64,000 nt of DNA from an uncultured Flavobacteriales bacterium (GTDB lineage: Bacteria > Bacteroidota > Bacteroidia > Flavobacteriales_G > Salibacteraceae): the NCBI GenBank assembly GCA_905181855.1, contig CAJIZE010000012.1:1-64000 (forward strand), given 5' to 3'. The notes under the pieces were generated by a model. The model was not told the origin of the DNA. It made no database searches and saw only the letters and a list, made by a program, of their open reading frames with translations. This document shows, piece by piece, positions 26,587-64,000 of this stretch; the stretch's first letter is position 1, and each line of letters opens with the position of its first letter. The position numbers and the translations under genes were made by a program.

Positions 26587-27007
26587 ACGTAGTTTATACA
26601 ATTACATGTTGCCGCCTAAATTACAGAAAATATTAGTGTGGGATTACTCGGTGAAGACACAACAGGTTATGGCGGCTATAAAATAGGAATTATTTTTTGG
26701 GTTTTCATTTTAACAGTAACTTCGTCTTCTACAATGGAGTTTCCCGGTAGACAATTCTATCTTGGAAAATAAAATACCGGTTGGTGAGGATTATAGACAA
26801 TCAAGGTAGAGCTAAAATTAACGTTTGGATTTTAACAGTTACCTTTGTTTTTATGATAAAAATTAGCTTGAATATATTTGCTACTTTGCCGCTACTAAAA
26901 ATAATCGGGCAATTAAAACTCAATGAAACAGACGTTTTCTGCAAGTCAATGCTATTGGTTTGTTCGAGAAAAACTACATAATTATTTTAAAGGACTAAAG
27001 CTAATTT
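26587..27007. other. Gene-free stretch with a possible promoter
   Basis: No supported gene. A TATATTTG at 26873-26880 matches the Bacteroidota -7 element and could serve the downstream gene, but a well-spaced TTTG partner is not obvious (the nearest lies 25 bases upstream at 26844). Short peptides in this stretch do not resemble any family I know. Confidence 0.35.
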
Positions 27008-32555: not shown

Positions 32556-34724
32556 CTACTCCTTAACCAGCTTTTTAGTAACCAACCCATTTGACGTTTC
32601 AATTTTAATCAAATAAATACCGTTTGATAAAAACGAAATATTGATTTGATTATCTGTTGTAGATATAACTTTGCGTCCATCAATAGAGTATATATTTTTG
32701 GTTGCATCTAAAATGCATTGCGTTCCGTCAACAAACAAAACATTGCTACTAGGGTTAGGATAAACAACCAATTGATCTTCAATGGGCAACTCAATTCCAA
32801 CCAATCTTACAGCTTCATTAATTGCCCTGGTTGCTGTTACTTTTCCCCATCCCCACCGAGTAGAGCCAGTAACTGGTAACACCCCAGTTTTATCATCTTG
32901 TCGGGCTGTATTTTTTAATATTTCCTTAATTTCTAATGGAGATAAATTAGGGTTAGCCTCAAGCAACAATGCAACAACACCTGTTACACATGGTGATGAC
33001 ATGGATGTTCCTGAAAAAGCTGCAAAATCATATGTTCTACCTTTGAAATTGTAACTCAATAGCCCGTTGTATGATCTGGTTGTAAAGGAGGATATTGATG
33101 AAACTACTCCAACTCCAGGTGCTGAAACTTCAGGCTTTATTCTTCCATCAAGGGTTGGCCCGTAGCTTGAAAAATGTGCGATACTTCCATTTAATATATT
33201 TCCTTGTGAAATTAAAAACTCAGAATTATGAGCAGCTATTGAAATAGCACTTTTTGTTGATGCAGGAGCGCCTAAGCTGTAAAATTCATCCCCCAATGTT
33301 GAACCTGCACCTGCTGACATGAATGGCTGCCCCCAATTACCGGCACCGTTGGTAAGGTGGGTAACGTTCCAATAATTAACCGTCCCTGCGCTTGCAGTTG
33401 ATCGTATTACTACTGCATTTGCAGAAGCTCTATTTTGAATGGAAAAAATCAAATGAGGTCTTTTGTTTAATGGGTTATTGGCTTCTGAAACAACATTAAT
33501 AATAAGCGAATCACTTCCATAATAAATAATGGTATCCGTATTACCTGCCATGTCTGAAGTACAGTAAAATTTTGTTCTAGCTAGTAAATTAGTCCCATTG
33601 TATACTTCAACAGCAGTGCAGAACGCTTCATTCTCCTCTCCCCACATTATTACATTTTGACCAAACATTGCCGGGTTTGAAGCAAAGTTGTCAAATCCTA
33701 CTCTTGAAAAAATAGTGTCTAGTGTAAACTCTTTTTGAATGTGAAAAGGCGTATCACCATTATTACCAGCTGATGTAACCACCACCACTCCATCATTTGC
33801 AAGGTTATCCATTGCTTGACTTAGCATTGAGGTTCCATCCATATTTCCTAAATGGTAAAGGCCCCAACTCATATTAATCACTAGCCGCTTGTTTTCTTGA
33901 GCTGCTTTTTCTTTCATCCAATTCATGGCATCTATTACTGCACCTTCATCTAATAAAATTTGAGTAAATAAAAAATTGGCCCCATAAGCAGGACCCGATA
34001 ATGCCAAATCATCCAATCTTCCACCAGCAATACCTGCTACATGACTGCCGTGGGTTGCATAGTTGTAGTATAAACAAGCTGAATCTGATTGAGCTGCTAG
34101 AAGTTCTGTTTCACCAACATGCTCTGCTCCATAACTAAAGCCATTTGGTTTGTTCCCACCCTGTTTAAACTGATCCCATGAAGCTATAATTCTTGTGTGC
34201 TGTTGCGCCGAATCATAAAACATGGGGTGTGTGTAATCAAAGCCCCAATCGGTAATTCCAATAATTACACCTTCACCGCTGTACTTTGTTTGATTAAACA
34301 CCAACCCTTCATGAACTGAGTCCGCTCTTAGGTCAACAATCGCCTTTTTAATTTGCGGTATAATTTTACTTGCCACTTCAAAAATATCTATCCCTTTAAT
34401 TGCTTCAATTAAATCAAGGTTATATATGGATACCTTCAATGTAACTATGTTAGCTGCCCTTGACCCAAAAATAACTTGTTTTGGTAATTCATTGCTATCA
34501 AAACCGTTATTAACGGTGGCTATTATAGATAAGTATAATTTATTGTTAATAAGCTGAACTGTATATTCTTCTAGCAAATTATTGTTCGATAGCTCTGCTT
34601 TTGTAGCTAAAGAAACTTCATTTTTTAGTTTATCAATAATGTACTTAGAGTTTGCGGAAGTTACTGGTTGAGCAAACAAGCCAGAAACAGAAAGCAATAA
34701 GAACAAGGTAAATAGATTTTTCAT
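32556..34724 (-). CDS. Subtilisin-like serine protease (S8) with T9SS sorting domain
   Basis: A signal peptide (MKNLFTLFLLLSVSGLFAQ) is followed by a prodomain and a subtilase domain with all catalytic motifs: Asp159 in GITDWGFDYTHP, His225 in ATHGSHVAG, oxyanion Asn in SAGNNGDT and Ser in FSGTSMSSPCVTG (near residue 570). A long insert lies between the Asn and Ser motifs, as in PA-domain-like subtilases. The final 75 residues start at VVYPNPSSNVLFV and end in LVTKKLVKE, a type A sorting signal for type IX export. The 722-residue protein is thus a secreted or surface protease, in contrast to the altered relative at 22-26 kb. Confidence 0.93.
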   Translation of the reverse strand: MKNLFTLFLLLSVSGLFAQPVTSANSKYIIDKLKNEVSLATKAELSNNNLLEEYTVQLINNKLYLSIIATVNNGFDSNELPKQVIFGSRAANIVTLKVSIYNLDLIEAIKGIDIFEVASKIIPQIKKAIVDLRADSVHEGLVFNQTKYSGEGVIIGITDWGFDYTHPMFYDSAQQHTRIIASWDQFKQGGNKPNGFSYGAEHVGETELLAAQSDSACLYYNYATHGSHVAGIAGGRLDDLALSGPAYGANFLFTQILLDEGAVIDAMNWMKEKAAQENKRLVINMSWGLYHLGNMDGTSMLSQAMDNLANDGVVVVTSAGNNGDTPFHIQKEFTLDTIFSRVGFDNFASNPAMFGQNVIMWGEENEAFCTAVEVYNGTNLLARTKFYCTSDMAGNTDTIIYYGSDSLIINVVSEANNPLNKRPHLIFSIQNRASANAVVIRSTASAGTVNYWNVTHLTNGAGNWGQPFMSAGAGSTLGDEFYSLGAPASTKSAISIAAHNSEFLISQGNILNGSIAHFSSYGPTLDGRIKPEVSAPGVGVVSSISSFTTRSYNGLLSYNFKGRTYDFAAFSGTSMSSPCVTGVVALLLEANPNLSPLEIKEILKNTARQDDKTGVLPVTGSTRWGWGKVTATRAINEAVRLVGIELPIEDQLVVYPNPSSNVLFVDGTQCILDATKNIYSIDGRKVISTTDNQINISFLSNGIYLIKIETSNGLVTKKLVKE

Positions 34725-43189: not shown

Positions 43190-43989
43190 TTACTTTTTGT
43201 AGTAAGAAAGAGCCTCTGGCAAATATGTTTTCAGGTCCGAAATTCTGGTTTCATGGTTTGGATAAGTACTCATAAATTCAGGTGTCTGAGCACCTCCTGT
43301 TGCTGCCATGCGGCCCCAAAAGCTAACAGCATCTGATGGGTCGTACCCTGCTAAAGCCATAAAAATCAAACCCATTTTTTCTGATTCAGATTCGTGTTTT
43401 CTAGAATATTTTAATGACCCCAATTGAGTTCCTAATCCATAAGAGGAAAAAAAATATTCTGACCAATATCAGGTTGTTCTTCAACAGCTTTTGAAAGGCC
43501 AACTCCACCAATTTGAATGGCCATTCCTTGACTCATACGTTCGTTACCATGGCGAGCAATAGCATGAGCAATTTCATGCCCCATTACTACGGCCAATCCT
43601 GTTTCTGTTTGTGTTAAGGGAAGAATACCAGTATAAAAACAAACTTTACCTCCTGGCATACACCAAGCATTAATTACATCTTTATCTACAACGTTGAACT
43701 CCCATTCAAAGTTTTTAATCCTTTTATCCAGATGGTTTTCAATTAGATAAGCTTCAACCGCTTTGGCAATTCGATTTCCAACACTTCTTAACATTTGAAC
43801 ACGATTATCTGATTCTGGTAATGCTTCATTCTCTTGCAAAAAAGTACCGTACTGTGTTAAGCTCATACTCATTAACTGACTTTCAGGCAATAAATTAAAT
43901 TGCTTACGACCAGTAATTGGAACCTTTGCGCAACTTTCAACTACTAATAGAACAACTATTAGCATTGAAACTTTAAAAATAATTTTCAT
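43190..43989 (-). pseudogene. M48-family metallopeptidase split by a one-base frameshift
   Basis: The first part is a lipoprotein (lipobox VVESC) with the zinc motif HEIAHAIARH in VVMGHEIAHAIARHGNER. It ends prematurely at about 43432. The remainder continues in another frame as SSYGLGTQLGSLKYSRKHES and ESEKMGLIFMALAGYDPSDA, which supplies the third zinc ligand Glu and the C-terminus. The break lies in a run of eight T (coding strand, 43446-43453); nine would restore a single 265-residue protein like LoiP/BepA-type peptidases. It may be a true inactivation, transcript slippage on the homopolymer, or an assembly error. The family acts in envelope quality control. Confidence 0.85.
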
Positions 43990-43990
43990 G

Positions 43991-44299
43991 TTATTCTATT
44001 TCGGCAGTAAGGCCGCGGTTGAGTAGTTCAGAGCAAATTGGCTTCAGCTCATTGTACGTTCCTGATTTTACATCACACTTACCTTTATAATGCACCAAAT
44101 AAGTACATTGTGTAGCTTGCTCTAATTCGTGCTCACATAAATCCATTAAGGCTTCTATTACAAAGTCAAAAGTGTTTTCTTCATCATTATAAAGAATGAT
44201 AGATTGAGCTTCTTGTTCAAGGATTAAAACTTCTTCTTCACATTCAGTTTGTGTATCAGAATTACCAACAACTAATTTTCCAAAGTAACTATTTCTCAT
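43991..44299 (-). CDS. clpS: ATP-dependent Clp protease adaptor ClpS
   Basis: ClpS hands N-degron substrates to ClpAP. The core SIILYNDEENTFDFVIEALM matches the ClpS ligand-binding site (YNDD.. region), followed by AMQ-type helix CEHELEQATQCTYLVHYKGK and the end LLNRGLTAEIE. The start is taken at the ATG at 44299; the longer frame from 44332 would overlap the next gene. The two acidic residues after N are DE, a normal variation. It is read in the same direction as the giant gene upstream, with only seven bases between. Confidence 0.9.
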   Translation of the reverse strand: MRNSYFGKLVVGNSDTQTECEEEVLILEQEAQSIILYNDEENTFDFVIEALMDLCEHELEQATQCTYLVHYKGKCDVKSGTYNELKPICSELLNRGLTAEIE

Positions 44300-44306
44300 T
44301 ATTAAT

Positions 44307-47300
44307 CTATTGATTTCGTGCTTTTTCAACATCTATTCTTTGACCTCCTTGAAGAGCAATTATGAATGCATCGTTAAGACCAAGTTTAATCATTGCATTT
44401 TTAAATTCATCCGCTTCCCTGTAGTTTTTATAAGTACCAACTAAATATTTGGTTAACCCTGCTGTATTTTCAACAATGTCAACCCCAAATTTTGTAAGAC
44501 CCAAAATCACTTTTGCCTCTTTAACAGGAATATCTTTTTCGTATGCACCAACTTGAATTCGGTAAACGATCGCATCTAGTGTTGGTCTGCTAACTGGATT
44601 TGTAGGAGCCACTGCATTTGGTATAGGTTTTTCAGTAGGTCGTACTTGAGGTTTGGTAGGTTGAGTTACCGTTTTATCAGCAGGCTTTTCTTGAACTGTT
44701 TTTGGAGTATTCGTTGGTTTATTTACTGGAGCAGATTGAGCAGTTAAGTTGTCAGGATTAACTCTGTTTTTATTTTCATATGCCGTTACAAAGGCATCTT
44801 GAACACCATTTGCCACAATTTTGTTTTTAGCGGTAATAGCCTCGTTAATGTTATCAAACACTCCTGAATTGTAGCGGTAAAAACCAGAAGCCGTTTTAAA
44901 GATGGCTATTGGTGAAATGTTATTTAAATCCTTTGGTTCAATAATCTTTCTATAAACCCCAATTTGCACTGTATAATAACTTCCCTCTAGTTTAGAAAGG
45001 TCTGTGTAGTCGGCACTTTTACTATTTGTTTGAATATCCGATACACTTGTTCTTTTGCTTGGTGTTGGTGGTAAGTTTTCAATTGAGCTGGCGGCTAATC
45101 CTGTGGTTGTTCCAGTATTCGAATTCGATGTTTCAGCTGATGATGGTTTTGGTAACCCTCCACTCAAATTTGCTGTAGGAGCGCCAACAAAGTTCTGTAA
45201 CTCTCTAGCATCTGAAGTCTGGATTCTTTTACCATTATAGTAGGCAACCACAAATGCATCTTGATACCCAAGTTTTCGGATTTCGTTTTTAGCAACATCT
45301 GCTGTTCCGAATTGCTCAAACAAACCTGCTGTATACCTTAACAAACCTCCACCTGCATTTTCTGCTGTTATAGGTGCAAATCCTCTAAAGTTCCCTGGTG
45401 GAATTCTTTTATTAAAAGCACCAATTTGAACTTTATATACTAAACCAGATGGCAGTTCAGGGTCAAATTGAATTGGTTGTGCTTCATTGTAATATGCAGT
45501 ATTCTCATCGCCAATTTTAAAGATTGACTTGGTATTCGGATCATACGATAAATCAATTTCCTTAGCACTAGCAACCGTTCGGAAAGCTGATGGATTTGGA
45601 GTAATATTCCCGTTTTTCGAAGAGCCTTGACTAATTGCATTGCCAGTGTTCTCACTTTCACCCTCATTTAAATTTGTATTGTTATCCGCTTGATTATTTG
45701 AATTTTGTTTATTGGTATTTTGGGCAATTTGACCTGAACTTGAGACAGGACTGGCTAATTGTTTGTTGTTATAGGCTATAACTAAGGAAGCTAGTGCTGG
45801 ATCTAAACTTGCCACAAAATCTTCAAGTTCTTTCTTCTTTGTCATACCGGCATCTGATAAATCAATGGCCGCACCTTCCATTTTTTCCGCCTCTTTAAGT
45901 TTTTCTTTTCCTGATTTATTTAAATCCTCAGCTTGCGTTAACAGTCTTTTCCTTTCTTCTAACTCTGTTGTAGCAGATGCTTGCTGCTTTAATTTAAGGG
46001 CATCTCCAATATCTAATTGTCCTTTCTCTCGTGTTGAATTAGCCTGTTTATACAACGTTTCTGCTTCGCGCATTACTCGTTCGTAATCGCCTTTTAAAGT
46101 TGTAAATTTCTCAAACTCTTGTGTTGATGTAACTTGTTTCACTTCTGCTTCGGTAAGCGTTCGATCTGAAGTTGGGAAATTAAAGTTCGACAACGTTGAA
46201 GGTAATTCACTTTTTACTTCGGCAATTTTTTCTACTCTTTTCACGTCAGATGCCAATGAAACCACCTGTTTTGACAATTCAAGGTTTTTGTTGGCTCTGG
46301 TTTCAACCATTGCCGCTTCTCTATAAAGTCTTTTATTTTCAGTGGTATCGGCACTTTCAGCATCAGATTTCAATTTCACAGAATAAGCTAAAGAATCTTC
46401 ACCCATTTGTTTTAGCTTTTTAGCGTCTTCTATTAATCCTTGAATTAGAGTTTCGTTTGCTTCAGGGTTTCCAACCGCATTTATTTCTGCATCCTTTATG
46501 GTTCTACTTTTCTTTTTAGCAAATTCGACATCTGCCTCGGCAAATGTTTTTTGCTGATTTAACTGAGCCAATCCTTGGAGCATTTCTGCCTTTTTAACAG
46601 GGTCACTTTCTGACTCGGCCGCAGACTTAATTGTATTAATTGAAGCCTCAATTAATATCACCTCTTGATTTGCCTGCTCAACCATAAAGTCTGCATTGTT
46701 TTGAGCATAAGTTTCACCCGTAAACAACTGCTGATTTACCCTAAAGTCATTTACTGATGCCGAATTGTTGATTGCAGAACTAACTGCTGATGAAGGGTTG
46801 TTTGTGCCATTTGATTTTGAACTACTCCCTAATGAACCTAGGTCAGCATTGTTGAACTCAGATTCAGAATTAAATGCAATGGTGTTTGATTTTGAAGTAG
46901 AATACCGTCCTAACGCAGCATAAATGTCGTTTGCTTGCTTCGCTAAAAACAAGGATTGGTCATAATCAAGGTTCGCCTGTTCAACAGCTCTATTTTTCTC
47001 ATCAGGATCTGTAATTGAGCTTGCATTTTGACTCTGTTGCACCGAACTTAATAACATTTGTTGTGACTGTGCTGCCAGATATTCTGCCCTATCCTTGGTA
47101 ACACCTGAACTTGGCGGTGGTAGGTCTGTAATAGGATTGTCTACTGCATATTGAACGACCAAGCCTGTTGCTTGGTTCATTTCCTTCTCCTTAATTGCCT
47201 TAAGTTGGGTCAAGCTAGAAATTCTTTTCTCTACTATCATTTTTCTATGTGGGTCCGCATCAGCAGCAGCTATTTGTTCAAGCTCCGCAACTTCTATTTG

Positions 47301-50300
47301 AATATCAGCAACCCATCTTTCACTTATGTCTTTTGTCTTTAACAATCTTAAATAATCATTGTCAATTTCTCCAACATCCCCAAATTCTAGGTTGTAGGCT
47401 TTATTGTAGCCACTTTTGTTCACATTACCAATGCTTTGATAGGCAAGTTGTGCATTTAAAACCGGGTCATCGGTTGCTCCAACAACAATTTGACCATTTT
47501 GCTTTACGCTTAAATATTCATATGTTCCAAATGCAGCATCTTCAATTTCATCAATCTGAACTTGTAGCTCATCTATTTCTGTGGTAAGCGTTTCTTTTTT
47601 AGAGTCTGATGTTGCATTTCTTCGTTTTTGTTTAAGGTAGAATAAGTCTGTTTCAAGCTTATTGCCCCAATTGTCCATAATCTCAGCCTTACTAGTTTCT
47701 CTTTGTATCTCATCTTCTATCACATTTGCTTGTTCAAGTTCAGCAGTAAACTTGCCAGCGTAATCATTATTCTGCGGTAATTCTGAAGGTTCAATTGAAC
47801 TTGGCTTGTTGGGCTTTACATTAGGTCCCCCAGATATTGAAGCACTAAGAGGCAGTTCGGCTCCTTCAGGAACCGGTAAAAAGAAACCAGCATTGTAATC
47901 AGAATTATAATTGTATGAATTGTTGTCAGTATTTGGATTGCTGTAACCTATTTCTTGGGAACTTTCAGACGAAGAATTTTGGTTACTTGCCTGCTCGCTA
48001 GTTGTGGAAGAATCTTGCGATGAGCTCTGAGAAGAGCCTTCGGTTGAGCTTTCGCTTAATGAGGATGCATTTGAAGTAACATTGTCATTTGAATTAGAAT
48101 CTGTGCTTGTATTTAAGTTACCATATTGATTATCAGCTAAAGCTGGAGCATCTAAAATGCTTGAAGTTGTTGCTGTTCCGTTTGGTGTATTCAAAGCAGT
48201 TAGAGCTGCAGCTGATTTAAAAAAATTAGGTACAAGAACCATCTCTGGGTCAACTCCTGAGTTGTTAATAGCTACGGCCATTTCTTGTTCGATTACATTA
48301 TCCGAAATATCAGGATATTGAATTTTGGTTAACTCGGGAATCATTGCAAGTTCATATTTTAAACTTTTCCGTTTTTTCTCAGCTTTTGCAATTGCAATTT
48401 TCGCATCTAAAATACCGGCTTTACTTGTGGCAATTAATTCCTCTTTATCATCTATCAATGGTTGAATTTCTGCTTTATTCTTATCCTTCTTTGTTATGTT
48501 CAGTTTAGTATATAAATCTTCAAGAGCCGATTCTTCTGAAGCTAAAGTCCTTTCAAGTTCATCTGCATAAGCTTGCTTTTTCTCAACCACTTTTTTACTA
48601 TCCTCATAATCAGAAAGCACTTTCTTGGTTATTGCAAAAGCAGAACTCACTTTTTCTTCCTCTTTATATTGGCTCACATATTCAACAAAATCAGATTGGA
48701 ATGAATCAGCATTCTCAACATCTGTTAATGATTGATTGTTTTGGTCTGCCTGAGTAGCTTTAGCGCCAAGCTCATTTGCTTTGATTGATTGATTTGAATA
48801 TGAAGATGAAAGTGCTGAATATTTTTCCGTTAATGATGCTGCTGCATTTGCTTGTTCTTGATGTGTATCTAATTCTGCCATTAGCGCATCAAGCTCCTTT
48901 TGAGTTTCAGGTGTAATTTCTTCGTCACTTAAGGTGAGTTTTTCTATTTGGGCAGATTCATTATCAGCAAGCTCTTGTTTGCTTGAAGAAATTGAATTTG
49001 ACAATGTACTTTGTTTACTTAAATTCTTGGAGCTCTCTTCAAAGAAAGAACTCATTTTTTCGGCTTGATCTGCAACTTTAGTTGGCTCTGAAAGCATTGC
49101 CGCATATTCAGCCTCTGCAATTTTTGCCGAAGAATTAATTGATGAGTTGTCGGAACCACTAGAATTACCCTGATCTGCTGTCAAATCAGAAATTTGACTG
49201 GTTTCACCTTCTTGATTGTTAATCAATTCAGTGTTTTCGGATGGTTTTGCTTGTGCAACTAACTGTTCTTTTTCTTGATAATTTACTTCGAGATTTGCCT
49301 GATCTACAAGTAACTCAACCGACATTGGTAATTCATCTTCTCCTATTCCTTCGTCAAGCAAGTTGGTGATAATTAACTTTTCCTCATCACCTTCCACTAC
49401 AATCTCCATTTTCTGTTTAAATGGTTTAAATGAGCCATTATCAGTCATTTCAACCACCCCAGCATGGGTTAAAAGAGAGTTTTCTTGCTCTACTAAGAAA
49501 CGAAATTTACCACTGCTAGGTAGTTTAATGGAATAGTTTCCAACAGCATCAGTTTCATAGCTACCGACTGTTTCGTTGTTGTACATGTTTTCAACGGTGA
49601 TTTTAGCGCTTTTAGAACTGGGCGCATTAAACTCACCCATTATCACCGAATATTGAACAGGAACTCTCACCATTCCTATGTTGTATACGTTTACTTTATT
49701 TCCTGCCATTGACCTATTAGAAGTAAAATAGGCTCTATCGTTGTCTTTATTTGGAATAAAGAAATAGTCGTCTTTTGGTGTATTGATAGCAAAATCAACA
49801 TTTACAGGCTCACTCCATTGGCCTGTTTCAGTATTTAGGAATGACCGAAAAATATCATACCCCCCCATACTGTTGTGACCAGTTGATGAAAAATAAAGTT
49901 CCGTTCCGTTTGGATGTATAAATGGATAATTCTCGTCACCTTCAGAATTCAGCACTCCTTCAAGCTTAATTGGTGTTCCCCATTCACCTTCAACTGTTTT
50001 ATCAACATAAAAAATATCTAAAGCTTGAGTTGTTTTAGGGTCGGTCATTGAAAAATATAACCGCTTGGCATCATCTGGCAAAAACATTACCGTGTTAACG
50101 TTGTTCTTTTTTTCAAATTCAGATTTAAAATCTTCGGGCTTAACAATTAACTTGCCTCCGTATCCTTCCATATTATAAGCTCTAAAAAAATCCTCATGCG
50201 TTGATTGACTTTTCTCATAAACTACTAAATCAGTAATATTTCTAAGAAGAGACAAGCCACTTTTACACATTTTAATTTTCGCATCAGCATCGAGTTCTTT

Positions 50301-50717
50301 CAAGGCTTTTCCTTTTGCTTTCACCTTAAATTTTTCATAAAAGTTTTGGGCTTTTTTAAACTCATAATTTTGATGATAAGCCAAGCCTAGATAATAATAT
50401 GCTGCAGGATCAACATCTTGTCTTGAAACAGCAAACTCCAGATAATTAATCGGCTCTTTTGAATCGTCACTAAAATCAAGTAAACACGCCCCATATTTGT
50501 AATTAAAATTTGGATCTTTTGGATACAATGACACTAATTGAGAGAAAAGAGGAGCAGCTTCGACGAAGTTTTTATCCAAAAAAAGCTTTTCAGCGCCTTT
50601 TTTAAGGTCATCTTCGGTTTTATAATCTTCTTGCGATGATGCAGGAAAAACGCCACCTATTACTATAGCAAAGGCAAGTAGCACCCTAATACCGAAATGA
50701 TTGATTGTCTTATTCAT
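44307..50717 (-). CDS. Giant TPR-PD40-coiled-coil protein with three C-terminal SPOR-like modules
   Basis: This exported protein of 2136 residues has a signal peptide (to about 29), TPR repeats (about 35-145) and PD40 beta-propeller blades (about 205-355; GTELYFSSTGHNSMGGYDIF). A carboxypeptidase-regulatory-like fold follows (about 365-440). The middle, about 480-1730, is rich in Ser, Asn, Gln, Glu and Ala with long predicted coiled coils (for example AEADVEFAKKKSRTIKDAEI). Three SPOR-like modules lie at about 1759-1835, 1913-1983 and 2050-2136; each begins Y-x-V/I-Q-I/V-G-x-F/Y and ends LG.qDAFVvAY.nGkRI. SPOR domains bind glycan strands of peptidoglycan, while PD40/TPR parts are common in gliding and T9SS-related proteins. 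A periplasm-spanning scaffold is my inference. It lies directly before clpS. Confidence 0.88.
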   Translation of the reverse strand: MNKTINHFGIRVLLAFAIVIGGVFPASSQEDYKTEDDLKKGAEKLFLDKNFVEAAPLFSQLVSLYPKDPNFNYKYGACLLDFSDDSKEPINYLEFAVSRQDVDPAAYYYLGLAYHQNYEFKKAQNFYEKFKVKAKGKALKELDADAKIKMCKSGLSLLRNITDLVVYEKSQSTHEDFFRAYNMEGYGGKLIVKPEDFKSEFEKKNNVNTVMFLPDDAKRLYFSMTDPKTTQALDIFYVDKTVEGEWGTPIKLEGVLNSEGDENYPFIHPNGTELYFSSTGHNSMGGYDIFRSFLNTETGQWSEPVNVDFAINTPKDDYFFIPNKDNDRAYFTSNRSMAGNKVNVYNIGMVRVPVQYSVIMGEFNAPSSKSAKITVENMYNNETVGSYETDAVGNYSIKLPSSGKFRFLVEQENSLLTHAGVVEMTDNGSFKPFKQKMEIVVEGDEEKLIITNLLDEGIGEDELPMSVELLVDQANLEVNYQEKEQLVAQAKPSENTELINNQEGETSQISDLTADQGNSSGSDNSSINSSAKIAEAEYAAMLSEPTKVADQAEKMSSFFEESSKNLSKQSTLSNSISSSKQELADNESAQIEKLTLSDEEITPETQKELDALMAELDTHQEQANAAASLTEKYSALSSSYSNQSIKANELGAKATQADQNNQSLTDVENADSFQSDFVEYVSQYKEEEKVSSAFAITKKVLSDYEDSKKVVEKKQAYADELERTLASEESALEDLYTKLNITKKDKNKAEIQPLIDDKEELIATSKAGILDAKIAIAKAEKKRKSLKYELAMIPELTKIQYPDISDNVIEQEMAVAINNSGVDPEMVLVPNFFKSAAALTALNTPNGTATTSSILDAPALADNQYGNLNTSTDSNSNDNVTSNASSLSESSTEGSSQSSSQDSSTTSEQASNQNSSSESSQEIGYSNPNTDNNSYNYNSDYNAGFFLPVPEGAELPLSASISGGPNVKPNKPSSIEPSELPQNNDYAGKFTAELEQANVIEDEIQRETSKAEIMDNWGNKLETDLFYLKQKRRNATSDSKKETLTTEIDELQVQIDEIEDAAFGTYEYLSVKQNGQIVVGATDDPVLNAQLAYQSIGNVNKSGYNKAYNLEFGDVGEIDNDYLRLLKTKDISERWVADIQIEVAELEQIAAADADPHRKMIVEKRISSLTQLKAIKEKEMNQATGLVVQYAVDNPITDLPPPSSGVTKDRAEYLAAQSQQMLLSSVQQSQNASSITDPDEKNRAVEQANLDYDQSLFLAKQANDIYAALGRYSTSKSNTIAFNSESEFNNADLGSLGSSSKSNGTNNPSSAVSSAINNSASVNDFRVNQQLFTGETYAQNNADFMVEQANQEVILIEASINTIKSAAESESDPVKKAEMLQGLAQLNQQKTFAEADVEFAKKKSRTIKDAEINAVGNPEANETLIQGLIEDAKKLKQMGEDSLAYSVKLKSDAESADTTENKRLYREAAMVETRANKNLELSKQVVSLASDVKRVEKIAEVKSELPSTLSNFNFPTSDRTLTEAEVKQVTSTQEFEKFTTLKGDYERVMREAETLYKQANSTREKGQLDIGDALKLKQQASATTELEERKRLLTQAEDLNKSGKEKLKEAEKMEGAAIDLSDAGMTKKKELEDFVASLDPALASLVIAYNNKQLASPVSSSGQIAQNTNKQNSNNQADNNTNLNEGESENTGNAISQGSSKNGNITPNPSAFRTVASAKEIDLSYDPNTKSIFKIGDENTAYYNEAQPIQFDPELPSGLVYKVQIGAFNKRIPPGNFRGFAPITAENAGGGLLRYTAGLFEQFGTADVAKNEIRKLGYQDAFVVAYYNGKRIQTSDARELQNFVGAPTANLSGGLPKPSSAETSNSNTGTTTGLAASSIENLPPTPSKRTSVSDIQTNSKSADYTDLSKLEGSYYTVQIGVYRKIIEPKDLNNISPIAIFKTASGFYRYNSGVFDNINEAITAKNKIVANGVQDAFVTAYENKNRVNPDNLTAQSAPVNKPTNTPKTVQEKPADKTVTQPTKPQVRPTEKPIPNAVAPTNPVSRPTLDAIVYRIQVGAYEKDIPVKEAKVILGLTKFGVDIVENTAGLTKYLVGTYKNYREADEFKNAMIKLGLNDAFIIALQGGQRIDVEKARNQ

Positions 50718-50833
50718 TAAAACGTAATAATCGCAAAGAAAACCAAATAATGCAAGTGGGATGCACCATACTTTTTAACTCAAGATTCTGAATAACAGGA
50801 ATTAATATGTAATTATTTAATGAATTACGATAA

Positions 50834-53800
50834 TTATTCATTGTCTTGAATTCTTCTTAAAAATATGGCTTTTTTTGCTTCAGAAGAAAGCATGTATCGA
50901 TACTTAGCTTTTCCTTTCTCTTTTTCAAGTTTGGTCTTCTTTGCATCTTTGACCGCGGTGTTAAAATCTTGGTTGGAGGAATACGCTTGAAATATTTCTG
51001 CTCTATAGTTAAAATAGAACCAAGTTGAACGGTCAATTTCAAGATATATATGCAATTCATCGCCAGACCTTTTCTTGATAAACTCAATATTACCATCAAC
51101 AAATTTGTTGACTTCTGTTTTATCCATGTTGCCAATACCAATTTTACCTACAGATCGATACGACTCACTTTCGTTGTTCCATTGCATCTTCAAATCGTTG
51201 AAGAAAATAGGCTTCGCTAAACCTTTAGGGAACTTTTTATACTTCTGATACAAACTCTGTTCAGACATTATTCTATCGGCTTCTTCTTTGCCAAGGATTT
51301 CTTGAACAGATCTTTTATAAACGTTACGGTCAAAATCGGTTCGACCAAGGCCTTCATCTTTTATAATTAAATCTTCCATAATGCTTAATGCTTTTTTATC
51401 AAAGTAAAAATCCATTAACCAAATCATATCCATTGTTGTGCTATCTCCATCAGTATAGTTTACAATGCTACCTGCAAACTCGTTGTCTATTCTTCCAAAA
51501 TTCACATTTGGACGAATCATTCCTTCACCTTCAATAGCGCAAGAATTTTTGTTGAGGACAAGGTAATTTCCCGGTAATGTTTTTTGTGTTATTTTTTCTA
51601 TGCTCGAAACAATATAGCTTTGAGCTGGCTTATCATAAAACAAAAATCCTTCTGAATTAAACAATTGATAATCAGAAGATTTAGTCGGTTCAGTTAAAAA
51701 GTTAGAATAAGTCCCATATGGATCTGAACTCATCATTATACCTGTTAATAAATTTGACCTATCATCCTCGGTCATAACAGAATCAATAGGGATATAAATT
51801 TCTTTAGGATCAATTTCTGAATTGAACTCAAACCATTCTATTTTCAACTCTTTACATGTATGGGAAATTTTAGAAAAACCATCGAAATTGAATAGTGGTT
51901 TGGCCGCTTCTAATCTAATGTTGCCGTAATATTGAAAATCTGGTGAGAGAGCAAATGATTGTTCTTTTTTAATCTTACCACGACCAACAGTCTGGTATGT
52001 TGTGTCTAACGATACATTCTCTAGAAAAATAACTTGCTTTTGATTGTCTTGATCAATGTAGTCAATATTCCCCTCTCCCTTATACTCTAATCTACCTTTA
52101 ACTTTTACTGAAACATCATAGATACGATGGTATTCTGTTACCGTATTGGCAACAATAACTGCATTTTTCAATGGATCCATATTGGCTTTGATTCTTACTA
52201 TGAGTTTGCCGCTATCAGGGTAAAAATAAGAATCACCAACAAGGAATAACTTTACATTTCGGGCCTTGATAATTTTATTGTTGTAATCAAACGTTGCCGC
52301 TGATGAATAAAAACTTAGTGAATCTTGATCAGGATGGACAGAAGTGAACTTTGAACCTTCGAGACTTAAATCTTTTTTAGAGGCCTCCTCTGAAACCTCA
52401 CCTCCTGAAAGTTCAATTTCTTTACTGTCCATGAACCAAGTAAATCGATCTATTTTAGCTATGTATTGATTTTCAGGCAGGTTAATGATTGTTGATCCAG
52501 CATTGGATATGAACAAAGCTTTTCTCTCTTTAAAATCTACATGAGCATTTACATTAGTCGTGTTAAATGTCAACAAATTATCTTCTAAGGATTCCAATAT
52601 AAAGTCTGCTGTATCGCTATCAAACTCCATAAATTTAAATAGGTAATCTCGCGAATAAAGAGTAGCCTCTTGAAATTCATACTTTCCTGCTCCTCTAAGT
52701 TCTTTAGGGTTATATTTTATGCTTCCATAAAATTTTGATTCGCCGTCATAAAAGCTTAACGGTTTTTCTTTAGTATATACTTTCATGTAATCTTTTATTG
52801 GCAACCATTTCACAAATACATCGTTTCCTGAAACTGGTGGATATTGCACATTGTCCATTTGCTCTTCGATTACATAATTTTCTCCTATCCCGAACATTGA
52901 ATCAGGATGAAAATTTAGATCTTTCGACTCGGTAGTAGATGTTAAATATTCAAGATATCCATCACCTTTAAGACCTTCATTACTTAGCTTAATCTCGTTG
53001 TAAAATTTTCCTTTTCCATTGTAAACATCAAAACCTTCGGGAGGTGTAGGTCGAACAAAACCAAGTGAATAATCGGGTTGAATGCTAAGTGTTTCGTTAA
53101 AAACAGGGAAAATGCCGGCTGATTCAAAAGTTCCTTCAAAGTTCAAACCTTGGTTCTTAAAATTATCAAGGCTATCCAACTCAAAGGGTTCAAGCTGAAA
53201 ACTAAAGTTATCGCGGTTGTAAACACCACCCTGCACTGCTTTCTTGTCGTAGTAGGCATATGACTCTTTAAGTGAATTAAATTTCGGGAACTTATGTAGT
53301 GATTTAAGTCCCGATTTGTTTCCTGGAGAATCAATTAACAACTCCCCTTTTACATCTACAATCACAGTTTTTAATCTCGTTGTTTTCTTTCTTCCAAATT
53401 CATCGATAACTTTTGTATTCACATAAATTCTAATTGAATCAATATTTGGTGAGTCGAATTTAAAGTTGTCGTAAGAAAACTCATGTTGGTTACCGAAAAT
53501 TTCAAAGTTTCCTGCGTTTATTATACCATCAAAAGAAAAATCACGGTTTTTTTTCATGATTAATTCTTGTGTTTTAGGGTAAATATAAACCATGTGAGAG
53601 TCACTTAAAAGAACCCTCTCTATACCCGAAATGGTTAATTCGTTGTTCGATAGGTTAAGTTTAGCATTTTTTCCTTGCTGCGGTTGACTATTAAATGAAA
53701 GTACATCATAATCTATTTTTTTTGCCTTCGCTTGAATAAACGTGAATAGCTTAGGCATTACTTGTACAAATTCTTTTTCTGAATCATAAGCTAAATAACC

Positions 53801-55267
53801 AAATGAGGCTAATTCGAGGATTAGCAGTTTTGCCCCAGTTAAAGAAAGTCTCATTTCTTTTGCCGCTTCTTTAATATAAAACTGGTCCATTCCGAATGCA
53901 CGGACCACCCTCATAACTCTAACTAAAGGATGCACGTTATCTATTCTATATAGGTCATCATACCGTTCTTCTTCAAAATAATCTAACGATTCAAACAACC
54001 CCGTCCTGTTGGTACTATTCACTAATGATTCCATTGTTATCAGAGGGTCATCAATTTTCCAATACATAGCTTCGAAACGCATATCAATATTGTGGTAGGT
54101 ATCGTAATACGGTGATTTGGTAATGTCATCACCGGTTCTTATTAATGATAGCAGCCTTTCTTTAATAAGAAATTGAAATTTAACACCAGGATGAAATATG
54201 GAGTCTTCATCGAGGGCTAATGTAACCTTAGCTCTTTCTGTAGTAATTCTGTCTTTTCTTATCGCAAAACTTGATGCTTTTGCTGTTAAAAATGGTTCAC
54301 CCTCTCGATAAAAAATAAGCTTTGCTTTTTCATCACCTAAACCTTTACCTAAGAATTTTCCACCAAGTTGAGCAAAACCACCCTCATAATCTACATTTCG
54401 AACTAAATTCTTGATTACTAGTGTTTTGCTCAAAGAATAAAATCTTGGATATAAGGCGTTTTCTTCTGTAACATTTGCTAATACTTTTTCTTCAAGTTTA
54501 CCAGGTAAAAAGTCATCGCCGAAATATTGCGGATTATGAAACAACACTGAATTTGCATTAAAATAAGGATGCTTGGTATCTATTTCATAATCGTTTAGTA
54601 AGGCATAAACTTTATCTGGATCGAAGCCTGCACGTTTCCAATCTACTTTACCTGCCTGTCCAACCCATTTCCCTTTCATTGGGTAATACTTCCCGCTGGT
54701 TTCATATATAACCGATGTGTCTCCTTTAGATAAACAGTATAAATCGATTGAAGGAAAATAAACCACCGGCTCTTCTTCATTGCCAAAAATAAAATCAGAA
54801 TTACTTGATTGCCAAGTTATTGTGTTGGTTTTGTATAACGCATTTGATTCTAAAAGATCAACACTGAATTTTAAATATTGATTATATCTACGTTTAGGGC
54901 CTGCAAGTAATTTGTCAATAACAACATGCCAGTTTTGAAATATAAAATAAGGTTTTTCTGAAAGTTTGTAATTCATAACCGATTTTAAATAATTATGAAA
55001 TTCAGGAAAAGGAAGCATCTTTTTATCGTTCATTTTATTGCATACTTCATAAATTTTGGCCCGTTCTTCATCGGTGTAATACCCACCAAACCATACATCT
55101 TCAAATTTCCTCAGGAATTTTCGAGCTTCAGGTTTTTTGGTACTTTTAAAGTAGCCATCAACTTCTTTGAAAAAACCTGTGGAATCAGATGGAAACATTT
55201 CAGGTCTTTGAGCAAAACCAGTTAAAGCAAAAACAATGAACAATATGGTTACGATAAATTTATTCAT
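50834..55267 (-). CDS. Large exported beta-rich protein of unknown function
   Basis: A signal peptide (MNKFIVTILFIVFALTGFAQ) is followed by 1457 residues with no named domain that I recognise. The first 500 residues are mixed alpha/beta, with a conserved-looking start (FWFGGYYTDEE-like). From about 530 on the sequence is dominated by repeated beta-strands with spacing typical of OstA/LptA-like or other jellyroll repeats (SAATFDYNNKIIKARNVKLF, VIVANTVTEYHRIYDVSVKV). Recurrent motifs such as GDGYLEYLTSTTES and GAGKYEFQEATLYSRDYLFK suggest an internal repeat of roughly 100-130 residues. There is no sorting domain. Its first eight bases overlap prmA, so it is co-transcribed with tpiA and prmA. 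Confidence 0.8.
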   Translation of the reverse strand: MNKFIVTILFIVFALTGFAQRPEMFPSDSTGFFKEVDGYFKSTKKPEARKFLRKFEDVWFGGYYTDEERAKIYEVCNKMNDKKMLPFPEFHNYLKSVMNYKLSEKPYFIFQNWHVVIDKLLAGPKRRYNQYLKFSVDLLESNALYKTNTITWQSSNSDFIFGNEEEPVVYFPSIDLYCLSKGDTSVIYETSGKYYPMKGKWVGQAGKVDWKRAGFDPDKVYALLNDYEIDTKHPYFNANSVLFHNPQYFGDDFLPGKLEEKVLANVTEENALYPRFYSLSKTLVIKNLVRNVDYEGGFAQLGGKFLGKGLGDEKAKLIFYREGEPFLTAKASSFAIRKDRITTERAKVTLALDEDSIFHPGVKFQFLIKERLLSLIRTGDDITKSPYYDTYHNIDMRFEAMYWKIDDPLITMESLVNSTNRTGLFESLDYFEEERYDDLYRIDNVHPLVRVMRVVRAFGMDQFYIKEAAKEMRLSLTGAKLLILELASFGYLAYDSEKEFVQVMPKLFTFIQAKAKKIDYDVLSFNSQPQQGKNAKLNLSNNELTISGIERVLLSDSHMVYIYPKTQELIMKKNRDFSFDGIINAGNFEIFGNQHEFSYDNFKFDSPNIDSIRIYVNTKVIDEFGRKKTTRLKTVIVDVKGELLIDSPGNKSGLKSLHKFPKFNSLKESYAYYDKKAVQGGVYNRDNFSFQLEPFELDSLDNFKNQGLNFEGTFESAGIFPVFNETLSIQPDYSLGFVRPTPPEGFDVYNGKGKFYNEIKLSNEGLKGDGYLEYLTSTTESKDLNFHPDSMFGIGENYVIEEQMDNVQYPPVSGNDVFVKWLPIKDYMKVYTKEKPLSFYDGESKFYGSIKYNPKELRGAGKYEFQEATLYSRDYLFKFMEFDSDTADFILESLEDNLLTFNTTNVNAHVDFKERKALFISNAGSTIINLPENQYIAKIDRFTWFMDSKEIELSGGEVSEEASKKDLSLEGSKFTSVHPDQDSLSFYSSAATFDYNNKIIKARNVKLFLVGDSYFYPDSGKLIVRIKANMDPLKNAVIVANTVTEYHRIYDVSVKVKGRLEYKGEGNIDYIDQDNQKQVIFLENVSLDTTYQTVGRGKIKKEQSFALSPDFQYYGNIRLEAAKPLFNFDGFSKISHTCKELKIEWFEFNSEIDPKEIYIPIDSVMTEDDRSNLLTGIMMSSDPYGTYSNFLTEPTKSSDYQLFNSEGFLFYDKPAQSYIVSSIEKITQKTLPGNYLVLNKNSCAIEGEGMIRPNVNFGRIDNEFAGSIVNYTDGDSTTMDMIWLMDFYFDKKALSIMEDLIIKDEGLGRTDFDRNVYKRSVQEILGKEEADRIMSEQSLYQKYKKFPKGLAKPIFFNDLKMQWNNESESYRSVGKIGIGNMDKTEVNKFVDGNIEFIKKRSGDELHIYLEIDRSTWFYFNYRAEIFQAYSSNQDFNTAVKDAKKTKLEKEKGKAKYRYMLSSEAKKAIFLRRIQDNE

Positions 55268-56081
55268 CTTTTTGAAAACTTAGACATGCCCAGTTGTTCT
55301 TATTTAATGATTTCTGTTTTTTTAATCCGTATGATATTACTAAATCAGACACCTCTTTTTCGTCACTGATTAAAAAACCCGATAAAAACATAATCCCACC
55401 TGAAGCTAAGCTGGATATATATTTTTGAATTTCTAATTTTATCACGTTTTTGTTGATATTGGCTAAAACTTTTTGGTACTGTTGATGCGCAATATCATCT
55501 ATTGTGCCTAAAACAAATGAGCAATTATTTAAGTTATTAGCCTTGGCATTTTCAATTGAATTGTGATATGCCCATTCTTCATTGTCTACTCCTATACATT
55601 TTGATGCGCCAAAAAATGATGCAGCAAAAGATAAAATCCCTGTTCCTGACCCAACATCTAGCACCGTATTATCAACCCAGGAATGCCCTAACATTTGGGT
55701 TATCATCATTGACGTAGTTTCATGATGCCCCGTTCCAAATGACATTTTAGGCGTAATAACTATTTCATATTGGTGCTTACTAGCCGGGTGAAAATCAGCT
55801 CGAATGTGAACCTTATCAGCAATAGTTAATGGATCAAACTGAGCTTCCCATTCTTGATTCCAATTTTTATTTTCAAGCTTTTGGATGGAATATTTAACAT
55901 TTGAATCAATTTTATTTAGCGTAGTTGCTAATAATGCTTCATTTAACTGCTGGCTAGGAATATAAGCTAGCAATTCATCTTCTTTTTCCTCGAAAGAATC
56001 AAATCCAATCTCAGACAACTCAGCGATAAACAATTCATAGATATCAAACTTTGCCTTAATATTAACAAACAAATAATCCAT
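55260..56081 (-). CDS. prmA: Ribosomal protein L11 methyltransferase
   Basis: PrmA trimethylates L11. The 273-residue protein has the substrate-recognition N-terminal domain and a Rossmann methyltransferase domain with SFGTGHHETTSMM, the SAM motif VLDVGSGTGILSFAA and the NINKNVI catalytic loop (N-P-x-Y-like position shifted, as usual for PrmA). Its start overlaps the tpiA stop by one base, and its end overlaps the start of the giant exported gene. Confidence 0.95.
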   Translation of the reverse strand: MDYLFVNIKAKFDIYELFIAELSEIGFDSFEEKEDELLAYIPSQQLNEALLATTLNKIDSNVKYSIQKLENKNWNQEWEAQFDPLTIADKVHIRADFHPASKHQYEIVITPKMSFGTGHHETTSMMITQMLGHSWVDNTVLDVGSGTGILSFAASFFGASKCIGVDNEEWAYHNSIENAKANNLNNCSFVLGTIDDIAHQQYQKVLANINKNVIKLEIQKYISSLASGGIMFLSGFLISDEKEVSDLVISYGLKKQKSLNKNNWACLSFQKDE

Positions 56082-61517: not shown

Positions 61518-64000
61518 TTATTGTTTAGCTATTCTAAAATGGTAAACCTCGCTGTTTTTAGTAACCGATAAAATGTAAAACCCGTTGGCTAAACTCGTAA
61601 AATTTACAGTTTGGAACGAACCATTATTACTTATCTTGATGCTTTCAATTAAGCTTCCATTTAGAGTATGCATTTGAACAGAACTAATTTCATTGTTCTT
61701 GTTTTCAATATTAACAATACCATCTGATGGATTTGGATATACTTTTAATTCGTTGTTTTCAAAAACATCGTTTATAGAAACCAATTCAAAATAGAAATAT
61801 TCTGATTTTTGAGAATTACAAGTACCATTAACTGCAGTTACTTGATACCTTCCTGAAAGTAAAGCGACTATATATTGAAGGTTCCCAGGATACGTTTGCC
61901 CTTCATATGACCAAATATAAAGAGGTGCAACAACCGAGGCTTCTAATGAATCAATCCCAATCTTATTAATTATTGGAGTTGAAGGTATAGCTTCAATTAA
62001 AATGCTACTATTTGATAAGTTTGTACAACCTACTGAGTTTGTGAAAGTATAGGTTAACTGATTGTTCCCTGGCCCGGCTAACGCAGGATATAGCGTGTCG
62101 TTAACTATTCCATTTCCTGAGTAAACCCCTCCATTAGGTGAGCCTCCTGAAATTGGCAACGGTGAATAATTTTCGCATATATTGCCAAAAGCTCCAAAAT
62201 TCACTGTCGGTGATTCCAACAACTGAATGGTCTTTATTACTGAATTACTACAGCCATTTAAATCTGTAAATGTGTATTTAACTAGTTTATTACCAGGGCT
62301 ACCAGCATTTGACGGATTAAATAGTCCGTTTAAAATTCCCGGACCGGTATAAACGCCTCCTAGAGGAATACCTCCGGTAAGAGTAACAGATGGAGCGTTA
62401 TCGCAATAATTTTGGAAAGCGCCCATGGACACACTAGGTATTGTATCTACCGTAATAAAACCTTTTGCTAAATTTGAGCAACCATTACCATCCGTATACA
62501 TATAAGCTACAGAATCTTGCCCTACTCCTGCTAAAGAAGGGTTAAATAGTCCATTGCTCACGTTAGGACCTGAATAAATACCACCAACAGGTAAACCTCC
62601 TGATAAAGATATTGGTGTTGAATTCGCACAAACATTGGGAATTGATGGGATGGAAACATTAGGCAAGGAGTCTATCGTTACCATAATTGTATCACTTGCA
62701 ATACAGCCATATTGATCTGTTCCGATTACTGAATATTGGGTAGTAATAATAGGTGAAATCAATATTGAGTTACTATTACCTCCAGTACTCCAAACATATG
62801 ATGCTCCACCACTTGCATTAATTATTCTGCTCGACCCTATACAAACACTGGTATTTCCTCCTGCTGAAATAACGGGATAAACACGAACACCAACAACCAC
62901 AGTATCAGCATAACTTTCACATCCATTCTGATCTGTTTCAGTAATGTAATAGGTATGAACTCCTACCGTGCTAGAGGCTTGATAAGAAGAATTGTAAGAC
63001 AATGTAAAAGATGAGTCTAGACTTGCATCTGAATACCAGGTAAGTGTTCCTCCTGAGCCAATTGCAGAAATTGGAGAAACCACATCTCCAGGACAATAAT
63101 TTGTATCCGCTGAAGCTATTGGCGTATTTGGTAACTGAAGATTATTCAAAATTATTGAATTGGTATCGTTGACGTGAAGGGTATCTCCTGGTACGTTTAC
63201 CCAAGCTTTTATGTTTTGATTTCCAGTACCGCCAAAAGGAGCCAATGAAGAAAAAGTTAAAGTTTTTTGAATATTCGGATACAATGTATCCACAAATAGC
63301 TGATTAACAGCAGCGCCATTATTGATACTAAAGCTTGCCGGCACCCAATAAACGGTATCTGTTCCAGTGTTTGTTAAATGAATTTGAACATCTGAACTAC
63401 TAATGTTACAAGCTGTTTGAGTTGAAGTACCAATTGAATCAATAACGATATCAACTAAACCTGTGTCAGCATAAGGTATATCGACATTAACAAAAACAGT
63501 ATCTAGAATAAGACCGCACTGAGTATTAATACTTGCGACATAATTTAAAACGCCATTGTTAAAAAATGGACCAACGTTAGTTGTTGCATTTGTATCAATC
63601 AAATTAGTATCCAAATACCAATTAATGCTTGCTGCAAGCGATGAATCTAATCCTGGGTTAAATGTACCGATTGTTTGAGGTGTAGCACTAGAGAGTGTCC
63701 AGTCGCTTGCGCCATCAGTATCAGCACCGTATCTTGAAATACCGGCCATTCCACTTGATGAAGGTAAACTACCCGTCCAGTCCGTTGCAGAAACACCTGC
63801 AGTTGTTGGAAAAATAAAACTGTTGGTTGCTACTGCATCAACGATGTTGTTACTAGCATCTTTTAATACATACCCTTGTTGCACATTTGATGAAGTAGAA
63901 AATGTATTTGTAGACCAATACATGTTATTTACAAGGCTATTTGCTCCTGCACTAAAGGCATATCCTACAGTTAAAACATTGTAAGCTCCGATATTAGCCC
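61518..64000 (-). CDS. Large T9SS-exported surface protein with tandem Cys repeats, 5' end outside the window
   Basis: The frame is open through the right edge, so the start and signal peptide are missing; an internal Met at 63923 is not the start. Near the visible N-terminus GYVLKDASNNIVDAV and TDGASDWTLSSATPQTIGTF suggest a lamin-tail domain. Ig/PKD-like domains follow, with a DTVFVNVDIPYADTGLVDIV stretch. Three tandem repeats of about 75 residues lie around 61985-62640, each with a GG.P.GG.Y.G.G..NGLFNP..AG pattern and a Cys near NGCSN. The C-terminus is a type A sorting domain (LKVYPNPSDGIVNIEN to FRIAKQ). It is probably attached to the outer surface. Confidence 0.88.
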   Translation of the reverse strand, partial: ANIGAYNVLTVGYAFSAGANSLVNNMYWSTNTFSTSSNVQQGYVLKDASNNIVDAVATNSFIFPTTAGVSATDWTGSLPSSSGMAGISRYGADTDGASDWTLSSATPQTIGTFNPGLDSSLAASINWYLDTNLIDTNATTNVGPFFNNGVLNYVASINTQCGLILDTVFVNVDIPYADTGLVDIVIDSIGTSTQTACNISSSDVQIHLTNTGTDTVYWVPASFSINNGAAVNQLFVDTLYPNIQKTLTFSSLAPFGGTGNQNIKAWVNVPGDTLHVNDTNSIILNNLQLPNTPIASADTNYCPGDVVSPISAIGSGGTLTWYSDASLDSSFTLSYNSSYQASSTVGVHTYYITETDQNGCESYADTVVVGVRVYPVISAGGNTSVCIGSSRIINASGGASYVWSTGGNSNSILISPIITTQYSVIGTDQYGCIASDTIMVTIDSLPNVSIPSIPNVCANSTPISLSGGLPVGGIYSGPNVSNGLFNPSLAGVGQDSVAYMYTDGNGCSNLAKGFITVDTIPSVSMGAFQNYCDNAPSVTLTGGIPLGGVYTGPGILNGLFNPSNAGSPGNKLVKYTFTDLNGCSNSVIKTIQLLESPTVNFGAFGNICENYSPLPISGGSPNGGVYSGNGIVNDTLYPALAGPGNNQLTYTFTNSVGCTNLSNSSILIEAIPSTPIINKIGIDSLEASVVAPLYIWSYEGQTYPGNLQYIVALLSGRYQVTAVNGTCNSQKSEYFYFELVSINDVFENNELKVYPNPSDGIVNIENKNNEISSVQMHTLNGSLIESIKISNNGSFQTVNFTSLANGFYILSVTKNSEVYHFRIAKQ

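Follow-up and report, generated by a model that had tools for sequence, protein, structure and literature searches.

A secreted Bacteroidota protein with a PorE-like head, a long variable linker and three SPOR modules: a candidate wall-anchored tether of the cell envelope

The stretch of 64,000 nucleotides analyzed here (the window) encodes, on the minus strand at positions 44307-50717, a protein of 2136 residues that we call Q. Its signal peptide is followed by a TPR domain, a PD40 propeller, a CRD-like domain, a linker and three C-terminal SPOR modules (Table 1). With a probability of about one half, we propose that Q acts in the periplasm as a secreted tether, namely as an envelope scaffold that resembles PorE and is anchored to the wall by its SPOR modules. 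The reading frame is intact, lying within an open frame of 2155 residues, in a source assembly of 1.43 Mb that is 55% complete, and near full-length orthologues were found across the class, so that the architecture is beyond chance. The signal peptide proposed in the initial annotation of this DNA is present and is of the non-lipoprotein type; a lipobox cysteine is missing from Q and from almost all of its orthologues.

Table 1. Positions in the window of the parts of Q and of its neighboring genes.
Feature	Coordinates	Strand	Basis or remark
Signal peptide, residues 1-29	50631..50717	-	Sec type I, no lipobox cysteine; from sequence
TPR domain, residues ~35-157	50247..50615	-	AlphaFold2 helices; profile match to TPR structures; Foldseek
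Beta-propeller-like domain with PD40, residues ~166-364, about 3-4 blades	49626..50222	-	PF07676; model strands
CRD-like beta-sandwich, residues ~371-453	49359..49607	-	Model strands 346-428; weak PF13620
Variable linker, residues 476-1745	45483..49292	-	Long alpha-helices, short turns, S/N-rich low-complexity; poorly conserved
S/N-rich low-complexity stretch, residues 861-940	47898..48137	-	Composition
SPOR module 1, residues 1750-1837	45207..45470	-	PF05036, alignment, contact residues
SPOR module 2, residues 1910-1998	44724..44990	-	PF05036, hhalign to module 1, contact residues
SPOR module 3, residues 2049-2136	44310..44573	-	PF05036, model
clpS, conserved downstream neighbor	43991..44332	-	PF02617; overlaps Q gene end by 26 bp
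U1477, 1477-aa secreted protein directly upstream of Q	50834..55267	-	Conserved; likely co-transcribed
prmA, conserved upstream neighbor	55260..56081	-	Overlaps U1477 by 8 bp

A search for orthologues with the same architecture showed that they are widely present in the class. Tail matches with E <= 1e-80 were obtained for 33 of the first 34 relatives (same genus or family), and both ends of the protein are present in 24 of 58 genomes from other orders, representing 20 families; Q is missing from 27 of these class-level genomes. Carriers of the gene include Crocinitomicaceae, Vicingaceae, Fluviicola and other Flavobacteriales. Among GTDB contigs, 466 candidate stretches were found, and the best 80 of them are nearly all from Bacteroidota metagenome assemblies. 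Of 296 genomes drawn evenly from the phylum, only 2 reached E 1e-40, and one of these is the source genome itself. Across 41 aligned proteins the ends are conserved, and the well-conserved parts are residues 26-475 and the three SPOR modules only.

Inspection of the N-terminal part bears out the order of domains that had been suggested from the letters alone. Each single TPR match in Q falls under its Pfam cut-off. However, a profile built from 40 orthologue heads matches TPR structures with a best E of 5.5e-25, Foldseek matched the TPR domain of CHIP (TMt 0.73) and the AlphaFold2 model contains the expected paired helices. PD40 (PF07676) scores 35.2 bits against a Pfam cut-off of 20.9, and in the model the propeller appears to consist of about three full blades and a partial one. 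For the regulatory beta-domain there is a modeled beta-sandwich and a weak match to CarboxypepD_reg (PF13620, E 0.047). This head model (residues 26-830, 38 sequences) has a mean pLDDT of 86.1 and a pTM of 0.57; paired TPR helices, propeller-like strands and the beta-sandwich are followed in it by helices mostly of 50-57 residues with short turns. Because the pTM is low, both here and in the tail model described below, the arrangement of the domains should not be taken from the models. With the whole multi-domain models, Foldseek returned no match at E <= 0.001, and this counts against the tether proposed above.

It was of interest to compare this head with those of known envelope proteins. 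The head profile matches OmpA-type relatives of PorE and CHU_0125 with E values of about 1e-35 to 1e-50 over the TPR and propeller-CRD regions. PorE (PG1058 of Porphyromonas gingivalis) resembles Q in its signal peptide, in the head order TPR, beta-propeller, CRD and in possessing a C-terminal peptidoglycan-binding module, but it is a lipidated protein of about 670 residues with a five-bladed propeller, an OmpA_C anchor and no long linker (PMC5053529, PMC7192894). The members of the Q family, in contrast, lack a lipobox, have fewer blades and a linker of 0.7-1.7 thousand residues, end in SPOR modules and form a separate branch. CHU_0125 of Cytophaga hutchinsonii shares the TPR and PD40 head, and its NCBIfam model (NF053607) is the best on the head of Q; this 656-aa protein nevertheless differs in its OmpA_C anchor, and Q scores 68.9 bits against a curated cut-off of 620. 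For the PorE model (NF052230) the corresponding values are 65.1 and 600. Pfam detects no OmpA domain (PF00691) in Q, where SPOR stands in its place, and all five of the OmpA-type paralogues that were checked end in PF00691. In a tree of 26 Q-family and 27 OmpA-type heads from related genomes, one branch splits the two groups with support of 100/100, and OmpA-type PorE-like proteins, often several, coexist with the Q family in the same genomes; many of them likewise lack a lipobox. From the separate clade and this coexistence it follows that the Q family is, by sequence, an old sister or paralogue of the PorE-type proteins with a different anchor and is not PorE. The identification of Q as PorE itself was ruled out on these grounds together with the missing OmpA domain and scores of about one-tenth of the cut-off.

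The C-terminal domain of PorE has been crystallized together with a peptidoglycan fragment (PMC7192894), and this provides a precedent for the combination of such a head with a wall anchor. The propeller of Q is seemingly shorter than that of PorE and the partner may therefore differ. Unlike PorE, Q has no lipid anchor to fix the membrane side of its head, a feature that counts against a tether.

The three SPOR-like modules that the initial annotation had recognized are confirmed, since profile searches, hhalign and AlphaFold2 agree. PF05036 scores 33 bits in whole Q, where the Pfam cut-off is 21, and modules 1, 2 and 3 run alone score 24.0, 17.2 and 20.3 bits, respectively, against the same cut-off. 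All pairs of modules are homologous by hhalign (99.70-99.95%, with module 2 to module 1 at 99.95%), the tail profile aligns to the SPOR structures 1x60 and 1uta, and 39 of 40 orthologue tails match SPOR. In the tail model (residues 1340-2136, mean pLDDT 77.5, pTM 0.43), long helices mostly of 38-54 residues lead into three alpha/beta modules, with linkers of low confidence between them. The first SPOR helix is mostly absent from module 1 and present in module 3, which has both helices. Foldseek with the whole models matched the SPOR domain of DedD (rank 26, probability 0.89), and phmmer with single modules found no matches in the PDB.

In the SPOR-glycan complex of Pseudomonas aeruginosa RlpA, Q270 and R309 touch the glycan, and their FtsN equivalents are Q251 and R285 (PMC6895207). 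Alignment with FtsN places R285 four residues ahead of a conserved glycine, which fixes the mapping of the contact positions onto Q. In module 1 both the glutamine and the arginine are found in 40 of 40 sequences, and Q1764, F1768 and R1794 are invariant. Module 2 likewise carries the glutamine (Q1918) in 40 of 40 and an arginine or lysine at the R1948 position in 40 of 40. In module 3 the glutamine is kept in 27 of 40 and a basic residue in 5 of 40, although the source sequence itself retains both a glutamine and a lysine there. These residues predict binding of denuded glycan by modules 1 and 2; in most species module 3 probably does not bind it. An anchor composed of SPOR would aim Q at peptidoglycan processed by amidases. 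A plausible source of denuded strands exists in the same genome, namely an Amidase_3 enzyme (L002); module 1 of the tail profile matches its C-terminal part.

Intact contact residues predict targeting to the septum, and one may therefore ask whether Q, in analogy to Tol-Pal or to the SPOR proteins of division, is a factor for division or outer-membrane constriction and would pull the outer membrane to the septal peptidoglycan. The nearest head model, that of CHU_0125, would fit this notion, as this Pal-like protein serves outer-membrane integrity and its deletion leaves the outer membrane impaired (PMC5891637). However, many near-complete genomes within the class and the phylum lack Q, which argues that it is not a core division factor, and division genes were not found near it; we consider such a role unlikely.

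Q shares with RlpA, FtsN, DamX, DedD and CwlC the SPOR fold and, in modules 1 and 2, the glutamine and basic contact positions. Such proteins mostly consist of a membrane anchor, a disordered linker and then a single small SPOR domain (PMC6895207), whereas Q has three modules behind a PorE-like head. The presence of three SPOR modules on one chain had been thought striking, but further proteins of the same genomes have at least three and in one case about eight, tandem SPOR is common in the class, and the number was dropped as a unique trait. Among these lineages are proteins (L198, L201 and L205) in which a PorG-like barrel is joined to tandem SPOR repeats matched by the Q tail profile; their heads are PorG-like and not of the TPR-PD40-CRD type. 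The open-licence papers that were searched for SPOR together with PD40 or tetratricopeptide, Bacteroidota, Flavobacterium or type IX secretion describe no protein like Q, in keeping with the earlier suggestion that it is something undescribed.

Between these conserved ends, residues 476-1745 (about 1270 residues) contain no Pfam match. The middle of the protein had been described as about 1250 residues of low-complexity sequence and coiled coil, with the coiled coil setting the length of the molecule. A long helical and low-complexity middle is indeed present, and heptad-like periodicity exceeds that of shuffled sequences (p < 0.05) in 4 of 12 segments. A single giant coiled coil is not what we observe, as the two modeled parts of the linker consist of individual helices, each about 40-57 residues long and set off by short turns, and stretches rich in S, N, Q and T break it up. 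Nor is the length constant, for linkers of 664 to 1736 residues (median 1275) occur among the orthologues. One relative of only 604 aa (L223) combines a Q-type head with one SPOR-like module, and in four others (L219-L222, families f6 and f11) the head is followed by a long linker and by an apparently single, degenerate SPOR-like end as judged by eye. The range of linker lengths and the 604-aa relative point to reach and flexibility, not to a ruler, and together with the helix breaks they rule out a single continuous coiled-coil rod in that capacity.

We propose, then, that the TPR-propeller-CRD head would dock on a protein complex on the outer-membrane side or in the periplasm, while the long helical and partly disordered linker would supply reach and no fixed distance. 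SPOR modules 1 and 2 would bind glycan strands that amidases have stripped of peptides, and the docked complex would thereby be retained or enriched at the division septum or at other sites of remodeling. Module 3 probably is structural or binds another ligand. This proposal retains from the initial annotation a link between a peptidoglycan anchor and a partner, by way of an interaction head and a SPOR tail; the coiled-coil spacer has not survived, and the suggested connection with type IX secretion (T9SS) or gliding is shown neither by the locus nor by the other results.

The gene order tpiA-prmA-U1477-(plsY)-Q-clpS is retained at the majority of some 40 loci inspected, often followed by an M48 peptidase gene and two more genes that by their sequences resemble NfeD and SPFH; plsY was recognized in the same way, and the name prmA is likewise presumed from its sequence, not from a family search. 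U1477 and Q are separated by 116 bp and this gap, with the overlaps of 8 and 26 bp on either side, suggests that prmA, U1477, Q and clpS lie on one transcript. At the loci examined no T9SS or division genes adjoin Q, the neighbors being housekeeping genes and U1477, and this counts against the tether. U1477 has no relative of weight in Pfam, NCBIfam or the PDB. It occurs in 91 of 100 relatives, and in most loci its gene adjoins that of Q on the upstream side or is separated from it by plsY alone; the two proteins might therefore be partners in another envelope pathway, with SPOR serving for location only. This seems very unlikely to us: U1477, the commoner of the two, occurs also in genomes that lack Q and is located elsewhere in several that possess it, and the association may be merely an inherited gene order.

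A connection of Q with T9SS or gliding through its PorE-like head is plausible. The source organism has SprA and five PorP-family proteins, and three Por_Secre_tail cargo proteins are encoded in the window. A stronger version would make Q a true component of T9SS, derived from PorE, that docks on the secretion machinery and fastens it to the wall where SPOR parts took over the anchoring. The PorE and CHU_0125 models are nearest to the head, PorG-like barrels are fused to SPOR repeats in the same lineages and SprA is found in 95 of 100 relatives, all of which speaks for this version, as do the three cargo proteins. Yet OmpA-type PorE-like proteins are kept in the same genomes, the scores of Q are far under the PorE cut-off, and a 95% complete genome (G098) has Q with SprA undetected. 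Further, the absence of Q from 27 of 58 class-level genomes, set against the frequency of SprA, implies that Q is not generally needed for T9SS. On balance we give this stronger version only a small chance. Since SprA and U1477 are near-universal in the sampled relatives, their co-occurrence with Q is uninformative as to function and was dropped as functional proof.

As a tether, Q would represent a new family among the few means known to link envelope complexes of Bacteroidota to the wall. Its wide occurrence in lineages with few cultured members, combined with its rarity in the even draw of the phylum, may explain why it was overlooked. OmpA binds peptide-bearing wall. The analysis suggests that OmpA and SPOR anchors exist side by side on related heads, and the placement of such proteins is therefore directly testable. 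A broader reading, which we consider quite unlikely, is that across a broad part of the class SPOR took the place of OmpA on heads resembling those of PorE and PorG, placing machinery for secretion or surface assembly at amidase-denuded, mainly septal wall. If that were true, the division cycle would be coupled to the assembly of envelope machines, with Q as a long-reach tether.

Directly upstream of Q, the secreted protein with three C-terminal SPOR modules, lies the gene for U1477, which was found in 91 of 100 relatives, with a mean column identity of 51% (21 relatives), and for which no relative was found in Pfam, NCBIfam or PDB. In one related genome (G066) it is present as an apparent tandem duplicate. 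Most relatives carry plsY between the U1477 and Q genes; plsY is absent from this interval in the window (50718-50833), and likewise in some relatives. The M48 metallopeptidase gene of the window consists of a 185-residue ORF with the remainder in a different frame, while in relatives it is a single gene of about 260-300 residues. The two-frame form is a frameshift or assembly error.

Coordinates of the features discussed
Feature	Location	Strand	Remark
M48 metallopeptidase gene	43199-43989	-	broken into two frames
U1477	50834-55267	-	secreted, 1477 residues
T9SS cargo	22090-26601	-	Por_Secre_tail
T9SS cargo	32556-34724	-	Por_Secre_tail
T9SS cargo	61518-63923	-	Por_Secre_tail
Amidase_3 N-acetylmuramoyl-L-alanine amidase	L002 (G000:C28)
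TPR protein	L003 (G000:C15)		468 residues
Minimal relative of Q	L223:1291-3105	+	604 residues
PorG-like barrel, SPOR modules	L198:1784-4093	-	NF052316 match, relative
PorG-like barrel, SPOR modules	L201:342-2516	+	NF052316 match, relative
PorG-like barrel, SPOR modules	L205:2165-5755	-	NF052316 match, relative

SPOR-like sequences also occur elsewhere in the window's own genome, where the C-terminal ~108 residues of the amidase match module 1 of Q and the TPR protein contains two SPOR-like stretches. The minimal relative of Q combines the same head with a short linker and a single SPOR-like module.

Two of the three cargo proteins of the type IX secretion system (T9SS) in the window are subtilases. 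Three PorG-like barrel proteins of relatives, which match NF052316 at 45-65 bits, below its cut-off of 130, bear from three to about eight SPOR modules each; it looks as though PorG, the T9SS barrel, had acquired a wall anchor of its own.
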